Of a stretch of DNA of 23,971 bases, positions 16,452 to 23,055 are shown one piece after another. Position numbers and translations under genes: made by a program. Origin of the DNA: a virus; IMG/VR virus record IMGVR_UViG_3300027734_000312, positions 1 to 23,971 of that record. The stretch is one strand, 5' to 3'. The first letter of the stretch is position 1, and each line of letters begins with the position of its first letter. The notes beneath the pieces were generated by a model. The model was given only the letters and a program-made list of their open reading frames with translations, was not told the origin of the DNA and made no database searches.

Positions 16452-17384
16452 ATGACCCCCGCACAACGACAAGCTGAAGAGATCGTAGGCCAAGTGGATT
16501 GGCAGTCCGAGAACCACGGGCTGTGCAAGTGTCCTGGTGAGGCTGCTCATACCAGTCACACTCGCATCAGAGATACAACGGTGTTCGTAGATGGCGCGCC
16601 GACTATCTTCTGCTGGCATACTTCCTGCACGCCGTATCGTGATGAGGCTAACCGCAAGCTGCGCCGAGCTATAGGTGGCGATGTTCTTTACAAGCCAGTC
16701 AACATCATGTCGGGTGGTACTGCCACGCCCAAGCTAGTCATCAAGAAAGATCCGCACGCCGAGGTCTTGGATAGGATTAAGACGATTGCTGAGTCAAACA
16801 AGCAACGCTACCTGACCCACTACAATTGGGACCCAGCCGATATGTACGAGGAGAGTCCAGTTAAGCTAGGCGATCCAGCGCAGGACTATCAGTTGTTCCT
16901 GTCGATGTTTAATGTCGCTGATAATATCTGGATCGGTGATGTCAAGGACAGCGGGAGACACCCGCAGAACTTTAGGTCAGCTTGGGATTGGAAGAAGTTA
17001 GACGAGCCAATCGGGCAGTACACAACTGGCGCAACCTACAAGTTGGATACGGTTAGCAGATCCAACGACACCGTTGAGCATAGGGTGTTCCTAGTTGTCG
17101 AGTCAGATGTGTTAACCAAGCCAGAGATGGGCGCGGTGTTCCAATTGATGCGCGATTTATTCAGCATGAAACTACACGCTGTTGTGGATACTGGCGGAAA
17201 GAGCTTGCATGGTTGGTTTGAGATGCCACCAAAGAACGAATGGGTGGATCAGTTAAAAGCTTTTCTTATTCCGTTAGGATGCGATCCTGCAACATTCAAA
17301 CCCAGTCAACCCGTTAGGATTCCTGGGGCAAAAAGAAACGACAAGATGCAAAGCCTACTTTGGTTTTGCAAAGGAGGAAAATGA
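16452..17384 (+). CDS. Archaeo-eukaryotic-type primase (prim-pol-like) with zinc motif
   Basis: A 310-residue protein. The N-terminus has a Cys/His cluster (Cys25, Cys27, His33/His36, Cys54, His56, Cys59), consistent with a zinc-binding primase module. The C-terminal half carries VFLVVESDVL with Glu217/Asp219 as motif I, DTGGKSLHGWF with Ser251-x-His253 as motif II, and QPVRIPGAKRN near 286-296, the pattern of the AEP/prim-pol fold. It would make primers, and perhaps extend them, for phage DNA synthesis. The next gene, a RepA-like helicase, overlaps its stop (ATGA); primase-helicase pairs of this kind are common in phages without a DnaG/DnaB pair. No DNA polymerase gene is in the window. Confidence 0.75.
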   Translation: MTPAQRQAEEIVGQVDWQSENHGLCKCPGEAAHTSHTRIRDTTVFVDGAPTIFCWHTSCTPYRDEANRKLRRAIGGDVLYKPVNIMSGGTATPKLVIKKDPHAEVLDRIKTIAESNKQRYLTHYNWDPADMYEESPVKLGDPAQDYQLFLSMFNVADNIWIGDVKDSGRHPQNFRSAWDWKKLDEPIGQYTTGATYKLDTVSRSNDTVEHRVFLVVESDVLTKPEMGAVFQLMRDLFSMKLHAVVDTGGKSLHGWFEMPPKNEWVDQLKAFLIPLGCDPATFKPSQPVRIPGAKRNDKMQSLLWFCKGGK

Positions 17385-18394
17385 TAGAACCAGCCGTAGC
17401 ACTTGGTATCAAGCCGAAGACCGATGAGTGGCCACCGATTAAATCTTATGCACAACTTATTAAGGAAGACTTACCCGCACCAGAGACGCTAATTGAGGGA
17501 ATGTTGCACAGAGGCGGGAAGATGTTGCTGGGCGGAGGAAGTAAGGCGTTTAAGAGTTGGAGCTTAATTGACCTAGCCTTATCACTACACGCTGGCGTGC
17601 CGTGGTGGGGGCAACAGTGCAAGATGTCGCGGGTGTTGTTTATCAATTTCGAGATCCAAGAGTGGAGCTTTCGCAATCGGTTGGCTGATGTTGTCAAGGC
17701 AAAAGGACTGGAAGACAAGGCCGATGACTTCGATACATGGACGCTCCGAGGCCACGCTGCCGACTTAACTCTCATCCGCCCTATGATCGAGAAGCAGATT
17801 GAGGGCAAGGGATACCAAGCTATCATCCTTGATCCAAACTATATGCTGATGGGGGAGAGGGATGAGAACAGTGCGGGCGATATGTCAAGTCTGATGAATG
17901 AGTTTGAGTACCTAGCGACACGCCACAACTTGTCGATCATCCTATCCCACCACTTCTCCAAGGGTAACAAGAGTGGGTCGGAGTCGATTGATAGGTTTAG
18001 TGGTAGCGGGGTGTTCGCGCGCAATCCAGACAGCTTGGTGGTCTTGACACCGCACGAAGAGGATGAGCGCACCTTTACTTGCGAGGTGACGCTGCGCAAC
18101 TTTAGCCCCATGGATGCCTTCGTTGTCCAGTGGTCTTACCCACTGTTCCGCCAGAACTTTAACCTCAACCCAGATAAGCTAAAGAAACCAGGCGCACACA
18201 AGGCGGTTGACGATAAAAAGTTCCTAACCGAGATGGGTTCAAAGGAGTGGCAGGCGGGCGATTTATGCCGCCATATCATCGAAAAGCTGGAAGTATCAGA
18301 ATCTACCTTTTATCGCTATCTTAAACGCCTTCACAAGGCTAAGAAGATACTGTCTGACAATGGCTTGTATACTGCCAATCAGACTACTTTCTAA
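17381..18394 (+). CDS. RepA-like AAA_25 replicative helicase
   Basis: The start at 17381 (337 residues) has a perfect AAGGAGG at 17371-17377; an upstream TTG at 17360 is rejected. The RecA-type core has a variant P-loop GGGSKAFKSW at 51-60, in which the usual GK is FK, a strand VLFINFE near 85-91, Walker B AIILDPNYML near 147-156, and IILSHHFSKG near 186-195. The C-terminal about 70 residues read like a winged helix (EWQAGDLCRHII, then VSESTFYRYLKRL). This matches hexameric helicases of the RSF1010 RepA type in phages. It should unwind DNA ahead of the primase encoded just upstream. The Lys55/Lys58 arrangement is the main point of uncertainty for ATP binding. Confidence 0.78.
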   Translation: MIEPAVALGIKPKTDEWPPIKSYAQLIKEDLPAPETLIEGMLHRGGKMLLGGGSKAFKSWSLIDLALSLHAGVPWWGQQCKMSRVLFINFEIQEWSFRNRLADVVKAKGLEDKADDFDTWTLRGHAADLTLIRPMIEKQIEGKGYQAIILDPNYMLMGERDENSAGDMSSLMNEFEYLATRHNLSIILSHHFSKGNKSGSESIDRFSGSGVFARNPDSLVVLTPHEEDERTFTCEVTLRNFSPMDAFVVQWSYPLFRQNFNLNPDKLKKPGAHKAVDDKKFLTEMGSKEWQAGDLCRHIIEKLEVSESTFYRYLKRLHKAKKILSDNGLYTANQTTF

Positions 18395-18435
18395 TCTACT
18401 TTCAAGTTACTATCATTTATAGAGCAGTCAGACCC

Positions 18436-18458
18436 TTATATATATATAAATTAAATTA
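18436..18458. other. AT-rich tract after the helicase gene
   Basis: A 23-base run of A and T only (alternating TA followed by AAATTAAATTA) starts 42 bases after the helicase stop. Such tracts melt easily and are common in replication origins and promoters. It opens the 266-base region without a gene (18395-18660) that also holds a hairpin, short repeats, a G-quadruplex motif and a promoter. Confidence 0.45.
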
Positions 18459-18472
18459 CGCGAAGGAAAGTA

Positions 18473-18504
18473 GGGGGAAGGACTCCTTAGTCCGTCCTCC
18501 CCCC
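18473..18504 (+). other. GC-rich hairpin downstream of the helicase gene
   Basis: GGGGGA (18473-18478) can pair with TCCCCC (18498-18503), and inside it GGACT (18480-18484) pairs with AGTCC (18489-18493) across a CCTT loop. Alternative pairing of GGAC with GTCC is also possible. No T-run follows on either strand, so it is not a standard intrinsic terminator. A smaller hairpin, CTACG/CGTAG, lies at 18511-18527. Confidence 0.5.
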
Positions 18505-18513
18505 ATACCACTA

Positions 18514-18623
18514 CGTTCTTTCCGTAGCGTGTTTCTGGTAATCAGAACAAAGAACGAAAGCTGGGCTGGGGCTGGGCTGGGTTGGGCTGGCTCAAGACAT
18601 CCTCACACCTGCCAAAGAACGAA
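18514..18623. repeat. Three copies of AAAGAACG around the G-quadruplex motif
   Basis: CAAAGAACGAA occurs at 18548-18558 and again, perfectly, at 18613-18623, flanking the G-rich tract. An inverted AAAGAACG (read as CGTTCTTT) lies at 18514-18521. Short repeats of this kind can be protein-binding sites, for example iterons; that is inference. Confidence 0.5.
18563..18590 (+). repeat. G-quadruplex-forming tract
   Basis: Five runs of three or four G (18563-65, 18568-71, 18574-76, 18579-81, 18584-86) are separated by exactly two bases (CT, CT, CT, TT), and a final GG follows. This is an unusually good match to the parallel G-quadruplex pattern with very short loops. It lies outside any likely gene, because the start at 18661 is preferred over one at 18529 that would translate it. 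Confidence 0.75.
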
Positions 18624-18624
18624 G

Positions 18625-18654
18625 TTGGTTATCAGGTGGGGGATGTGGTACAAT
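18625..18654 (+). promoter_or_regulatory. Sigma70-like promoter, near-leaderless
   Basis: TTGGTT (18625-18630) and TACAAT (18649-18654) are 18 bases apart, and TGG directly before the second box makes an extended -10. The ATG at 18661 begins only 6 bases after the -10, so transcription would start at or beside the start codon and the mRNA would be leaderless or nearly so. No strong Shine-Dalgarno sequence is present, which agrees. Confidence 0.55.
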
Positions 18655-18660
18655 CGTGAA

Positions 18661-18801
18661 ATGAACAAAGCGAAACCAGGTTTATACGCAAACATCAACG
18701 CCCGCCGTAAGGCTGGCACTAGCCGTCCTAAATCCAAAAGCACCATCAGCCCCCGCACTTGGCGGATGATGAAGGCTAAAAAAGGCGGTTTTGCAGAGTG
18801 A
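18661..18801 (+). CDS. Small basic phage protein (KPGLYANINARRKAG type)
   Basis: A 46-residue protein with KPGLYANINARRKAG at residues 5-19, a signature I know from many small phage proteins (K-P-G-L-Y-A-N-I-x-A-[KR]-R), and a tail rich in Lys, Ser and Arg. ATG 18661 is chosen over 18529 because the family begins just before this motif and because the upstream part is non-coding G-rich sequence. It is preceded by an extended -10 promoter. It probably binds nucleic acid or a virion component; function unknown. Confidence 0.7.
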   Translation: MNKAKPGLYANINARRKAGTSRPKSKSTISPRTWRMMKAKKGGFAE

Positions 18802-19480: not shown

Positions 19481-19543
19481 CCCTTATAGGGCTATTCTAC
19501 ACACCCCTTATAGGGCTATTCTACACGCCCCTTATAGGGCTAT
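19481..19543. repeat. 24-bp tandem repeats at the convergence point
   Basis: The unit CCCTTATAGGGCTATTCTAC plus four bases occurs at 19481-19504 and 19505-19528 (one base different: ACAC versus ACGC), with a third partial copy at 19529-19543. Each unit starts with CCCT/AGGG around TAT, a small dyad. The array lies between the last plus-strand gene and the last gene of the minus-strand cassette. Iteron-like origin sites or a two-sided transcription block are the likeliest roles. Confidence 0.8.
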
Positions 19544-19752: not shown

Positions 19753-19782
19753 ATTTTTATGTGCTCCTTATAGGTGGCTATG

Positions 19783-22370: not shown

Positions 22371-22994
22371 ATGGATGAACTCGCGGACTCCACCGCACCC
22401 GAAAAGGCAAAGAACGGACGAGAGATATTTACTAAAGAATTGGCCGAGGAAATTATATCAGCGTGCGGGTCTGGATTTACTTTAGAAAAGGCTGGTGCGT
22501 TGGTCGGGGTCAATCCTTCCACGATTAAAACTTGGGCAAGCAGAAAGCCAGATTTCGCTAGGCGTGTAGAGTCCGCCAGAAAAAAGCACGAGCTTTCCTT
22601 ACTTCGAGACATAGAGCTGGCAGGGGCAAAGTCATGGCAAGCCAAAGCATGGATGGCGGAACGAATCTATAACCATGCCCAACCCTCTGCCCGTCTGAAT
22701 GTTACGCAAGATGTCACCCATGGCCTATCCTCAAACCTCGCCTCTTTACTCGCGGGCATCGCGGGGAGAAAGAAGACGCAAGTGATTGATGCTAAAGCAG
22801 TTGAGGTCAAAACAGCCATACCAATTCGAGACAATAGCTATTGTGCGACAGATGCCACGCAAACTATTGTAACCACAACGCCAAAAGTTTTAGGGAAGAC
22901 TAGGCATAGGCGCATGAAGACACGCAAACCAAGGGCGGAGAGCTTGGCCAAGTACACCACCACGCCCCCTGCCAGCCCCCCAGCCCCCGTTTAA
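22371..22994 (+). CDS. terS: Terminase small subunit
   Basis: A 207-residue protein directly before the large subunit. The N-terminal half is helical with a helix-turn-helix (FTLEKAGALVGVNPSTIKTW, residues about 36-55) for DNA recognition, then RRVESARKKHELSLLRDIEL and WQAKAWMAERIY, an oligomerization-type helical region. The C-terminal about 80 residues are basic and Pro/Thr-rich and end in a Pro-rich stretch coded by runs of C. TerS binds the packaging site and loads TerL. Symbol given for function and context; sequence families of TerS vary widely. Confidence 0.75.
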   Translation: MDELADSTAPEKAKNGREIFTKELAEEIISACGSGFTLEKAGALVGVNPSTIKTWASRKPDFARRVESARKKHELSLLRDIELAGAKSWQAKAWMAERIYNHAQPSARLNVTQDVTHGLSSNLASLLAGIAGRKKTQVIDAKAVEVKTAIPIRDNSYCATDATQTIVTTTPKVLGKTRHRRMKTRKPRAESLAKYTTTPPASPPAPV

Positions 22995-23011
22995 TACGCA
23001 TATACCCCCCC
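22965..23011 (-). repeat. G-tracts on the minus strand between terS and terL
   Basis: The plus strand has C-runs at 22965-69 (5), 22976-81 (6), 22984-88 (5) and 23005-11 (7), so the minus strand carries four G-runs of five or more. Loops of 16, 2 and 6 bases separate them. The first three lie in the Pro-rich end of terS; the fourth is in the 61-base gap before terL. Packaging-site or structural roles are speculative. Confidence 0.5.
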
Positions 23012-23055
23012 AAATTATTGTGGCTCAAAACAAAAAGAGGTCTTAAACATCACCC

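Follow-up and report, generated by a model that had tools for sequence, protein, structure and literature searches.

A G-rich tandem repeat of variable unit number separating replication genes from an extended -10 promoter in a phage family

Genes and features of the locus

The window analysed here comprises 23,971 nucleotides, positions 1 to 23,971 of a viral record (IMG/VR IMGVR_UViG_3300027734_000312). The spacer between its helicase gene and the following small ORF holds a G-rich tract, and the genes and elements of this part of the window are as follows.

16452-17384, + strand: gene of 310 aa, 5' of the helicase gene and overlapping its start
17360-18394, + strand: AAA_25 helicase of the primase-helicase type (Pfam AAA_25, E 3e-26; phrog_2597 DNA primase, E 5e-59)
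18432-18455, no strand assigned: imperfect AT-rich palindrome; many relatives have a near-perfect form, TCCTTATATATATAAGGA
18459-18529, + strand: stem-loop directly 5' of the G-rich tract, its pairing kept with compensatory changes
18548-18558, + strand: left copy of the 11-base repeat CAAAGAACGAA, a perfect match to the right copy
18560-18592, + strand: G-rich GGGYT tandem array, containing the quadruplex motif at 18563-18590
18613-18623, + strand: right copy of CAAAGAACGAA, a perfect match to the left copy
18646-18654, + strand: extended -10 promoter element TGGTACAAT, found in nearly every relative, whichever module lies upstream
18661-18801, + strand: ORF of 46 aa, phrog_25774 (E 4e-16), of unknown function

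No match to the 310-aa gene was found in Pfam or PHROG, and its position and arrangement suggest a split primase/initiator. The helicase was only 35-40% identical to those from phages of Paenibacillus, Streptococcus and Faecalibacterium. No DNA-level relatives were found among named phages, and the host search in cellular genomes returned only distant helicase matches in two metagenome-assembled genomes. The mRNA of the 46-aa ORF is probably leaderless, because the extended -10 ends six bases 5' of its ATG, which is about one transcription-start distance. Just upstream of the promoter (18624-18640), two alleles, GTTGG-TTATCA-GG and GTTGG-TGATAA-GG, are exactly a 6-base inversion apart.

Sequence properties of the G-rich tract

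The tract at 18563-18590 (GGGCTGGGGCTGGGCTGGGTTGGGCTGG) reads GGG CT GGGG CT GGG CT GGG TT GGG CT GG, that is, five runs of three or four G with 2-base loops throughout and a sixth run of two G. A quadruplex motif of this make-up, lying 3' of the helicase gene with a promoter beyond it, had been claimed by the sequence-only reading, and the runs and loops, the location and the promoter were all found as described; the promoter was also conserved among relatives. With at least four runs of three G and loops of 1-7 bases, the tract has the form of a canonical three-tetrad G-quadruplex motif. It was the sole instance of a G3+ motif with loops of 1-7 bases when both strands of the window were scanned, and its mean G4Hunter score was 1.86. 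The whole window was shuffled 300 times with its dinucleotides preserved: no shuffle (0/300) gave five runs joined by 2-base loops, 4 gave a motif on the + strand whose loops were 1-3 bases long, and 51 gave some G3+ motif, on one strand or the other, with loops of 1-7 bases. The same stretch, located in the spacer between the helicase gene and the extended -10 promoter, was reported by Tandem Repeats Finder as a 5-nt array of 6 copies (18560-18590).

Several other identities of the tract were considered. A coding role was ruled out, since tract lengths across relatives ignore multiples of three, and no known RNA family in Rfam matched. The E. coli Chi sequence (GCTGGTGG) has zero copies inside the tract, and its counts in the window and three relatives equalled the expectation of a maximum-order Markov model. 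The 11-base repeats that had been pointed out on both sides of the tract are indeed perfect in the window but poorly kept in relatives; the left copy was retained only in the clade of the window, and the right copy was found only in some phages and was not conserved across relatives.

Conserved elements adjoining the tract

The conserved elements of the spacer are the stem-loop and the -10 promoter, which adjoin the tract. In the stem-loop, CGC pairs with GCG and GGAAA with TTTCC in the outer part, and GGGGG-AGGAC pairs with GTCCT-CCCCC in the inner part. These pairs were kept at 99.4% in 20 distinct sequences, with compensatory changes in four pairs, while slid controls were 36-58% paired, a comparison biased in favour of the stem-loop since the structure was taken from the same alignment. 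A hairpin was also present at the same place in the two loci whose helicase is 75% identical (L280 and L286). An ordinary intrinsic terminator was rejected because no T-run follows the stem-loop. The -10 was retained in nearly every locus; in L280 and L286 it is changed.

The same locus in two clades of relatives

A helicase search of environmental viral contigs gave 80 related loci, and promoter and ORF patterns added more. The tract was found at the same place in 70 loci, which represent 58 distinct alleles: 22 from the window's own clade, A, and 36 from the sister clade, B. The repeat unit is GGGYT, often arranged as a 10-nt double unit (GGGCTGGGTT); the units lie head to tail and their number varies between relatives, as in a short tandem repeat. 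The distance from the tract to the -10 was roughly constant among relatives.

A three-tetrad motif (at least four GGG runs, loops of 1-7 bases) was present in 27 of the 58 distinct tracts, that is, in 18/22 from clade A and 9/36 from clade B. The clade A array has the form GCT(GGGYT)n, with nearly intact G-runs and the loops, alternating between CT and TT, as its most variable part; its median best G4Hunter score was 1.68. The clade B array is typically [AG]GGCTGGCW(GGGCT)nGGCT, with 1 to 8 GGG runs, a first run that is often AGG or AAG, and lengths that move in steps of 5 (28, 33, 38). Here, changes fell on the first G of the unit (25 substitutions and 50 deletions) more than on the loops (15 T at Y and 21 at the last base). 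One locus (L250) has expanded to four GGCTGGGTT units. At the other end, a complete genome of clade B type (G001; 39,373 bp with 123-bp identical ends) has AAGCTGGCAGGGCTGGCT only as its tract, with too few G-runs for any quadruplex.

It had been proposed that the G-runs should be kept in related genomes while the loops vary. This held for clade A but not for clade B, in which the G-runs are eroded at least as much as the loops. The pattern of a conserved functional quadruplex, with G-runs kept across relatives and loops varying, was thus not found.

Loci without the tract and swappable replication modules

The tract was absent from type-1 clade C, with four loci of 93-94% helicase identity that keep the -10 (L030, L045, L046 and L048), and from L280 and L286, in which the -10 is changed. 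It was also absent from all phages with other replication modules at this site. Six of these loci (L214, L221, L236, L238, L258 and L290) differ from the window in their spacer. In L236, a 641-aa primase-helicase unlike that of the window, also matched in L214, L238 and L290, lies between the same neighbours, and the spacer (L236:5972-6266) contains repeated iteron-like TACCGCAA sites around CCCCTTATAGGGG. A third upstream sequence is common to L268, L270, L271, L275, L285 and L288 and corresponds to a 679-aa gene module, as shown in L275 and L288, and a fourth is common to L272, L281, L283, L284 and L289. The promoter and the ORF were kept in all tract-less loci, the exception being the changed -10 of L280 and L286. 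Six loci classed as "other, tract" were false positives of a loose pattern, and their upstream sequence is without the tract. Across the region corresponding to 18392-18661, this phage family has at least four different replication modules in front of one and the same promoter and ORF.

The control role that had been proposed for the tract was not borne out, as several groups share the promoter without any tract. In a version limited to clade A, the non-template G-rich strand would fold during transcription and either tune the promoter about 60 bases downstream or block read-through from the helicase operon. The 18/22 clade A tracts with the motif and their G4Hunter median would suit such a role, as would the coding strand being the G-rich strand and the roughly constant spacing to the -10. 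However, only 9/36 clade B tracts have the motif, four tract-less type-1 phages and the other module types keep the promoter, and the two phages with 75% identical helicase keep it, with a changed -10, without the tract; a functional quadruplex is therefore unlikely.

The exchange of modules also bears on whether the spacer is the origin used by the type-1 primase-helicase, with the AT palindrome and stem-loop as its core and the pentamer array as iteron-like candidate binding sites. Replication genes and spacer are exchanged as a unit, as in L236 with its other primase-helicase and other spacer between the same neighbours, and the stem-loop is conserved with covariation, both of which would be consistent with an origin. 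Co-transfer of the spacer is, however, also expected from linkage alone, and the absence of the array beside a 93-94% identical helicase speaks against its being essential. Cumulative GC skew has its turning point some 600 bp downstream; this point is a maximum, not a minimum, and coincides with the switch in gene orientation, so that it is uninformative or contrary. A replication origin here is accordingly considered quite improbable. Highly doubtful, too, is that the tract serves a phage origin specific to the cassette as a variable cis-site prone to quadruplex formation. In this reading, the type-1 primase-helicase would start replication at the AT palindrome and stem-loop while the coding-strand G-array would tune initiation or the neighbouring promoter. 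If this were true, replication genes and origin would be exchanged together between phages.

The repeat might instead promote exchange at the right edge of the replication cassette. When L236 is compared with the window, the two module types become similar again within some 20-30 bases rightward of the tract site, as would be expected at such a boundary. Modules without the tract are exchanged too, at other breakpoints (just 5' of the -10 in clade C and other modules), which makes a role of the repeat in recombination very improbable.

Rate of change of the array

At 93-95% helicase identity, the mean edit distance per base was 0.22 for the tract, 0.04 for the left flank and 0.125 for the right flank, so that at equal gene divergence the tract showed 2-5 times more change than its flanks, mostly as whole repeat units. 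Fourfold-degenerate sites within clade A showed 0.26 differences. In pairs with at least 97.5% gene identity, tracts were identical or slightly different at equal length (L052/L055). Since almost identical phages differ little or not at all in their tracts, slippage would not be very fast, and a rapid phase-variation (contingency) locus was rejected. The pace of change is that of neutral sites, and the array is not phase-variable.

A slippage-prone repeat as the favoured explanation

In our view, the feature is with reasonable probability a G-rich short tandem repeat prone to slippage, placed in the spacer that separates the replication cassette from the extended -10 promoter. The sequence of the tract, its variability, its absence in relatives and its conserved neighbours, all observed directly, are best read as a lineage-specific repeat that borders an exchangeable replication cassette and whose quadruplex potential would be largely a by-product of the repetition. 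Slippage is the mechanism that we infer: misalignment in replication or recombination would cause repeat units to be gained, lost and reshuffled. Any array reaching at least four GGG units would then contain a quadruplex motif automatically, and the potential would rise and fall with the number of units. Those functions of the spacer that are conserved would adjoin the tract, namely the stem-loop that the helicase transcript carries at its 3' end and the -10 of the small ORF. The tract itself would have no essential role, being most likely a spacer repeat that the phages can do without and not a conserved control switch.

Three observations count against this explanation. In clade A, nearly intact G-runs with CT/TT loops are the pattern expected from selection for a quadruplex; it is argued that spread of the double unit would account for this pattern in few events. 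In addition, 38 of the 44 phages with this helicase type keep some G-rich tract. The third is the close likeness of tracts in near-identical phages described above.

Even a textbook-strong quadruplex motif can thus arise from tandem repetition as a by-product and not stand up to comparison among relatives. The locus itself is more useful: one phage family swaps at least four replication modules, each with its own spacer, and all of them adjoin a constant promoter and ORF.

Comparison with known systems

The pilE quadruplex of Neisseria gonorrhoeae, with GGG runs and short loops upstream of a gene, is required for specific recombination. The phage tract likewise has GGG runs with short loops 5' of a gene, but unlike the pilE element it is not conserved and appears dispensable in nature.

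Intergenic short tandem repeats in Xanthomonas and Nostoc (GGGAATC and GGGGAYT) are reported to form quadruplexes by circular dichroism (PMC4692102, where a Neisseria quadruplex promoting antigenic variation is also mentioned). By analogy, the phage tract resembles these known variable quadruplex-forming repeats, in that a unit of a G-run and a short linker is intergenic and differs in number between close relatives. Unlike them, it occupies a single locus in the phage family, has a 5-nt unit and has a predicted fold, and clade B shows no preference for four units. Work in E. coli reports that quadruplex-forming repeats, (G3T)4 and (G3T)8 among them, are unstable (PMC7023247). These are also tandem repeats of G3 with short loops, and their mutability was measured in cells; they were placed in engineered reporters with T as the loop, whereas the phage tract is natural with YT loops.

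Other repeats in the window

A 24-nt repeat (CCCTTATAGGGCTATTCTACACAC) is present in 2.6 copies at 19481-19543, between the blocks of + strand and - strand genes. The sequence CCTTATAGG occurs again at 19766, and three relatives have it at a similar position. The small terminase gene closes with C-runs of CCCCC, CCCCCC, CCCCC and CCCCCCC (22965-23012); these give a G4Hunter score of -2.56, which is stronger than that of the tract at 18563-18590, and run lengths were similar in three relatives.
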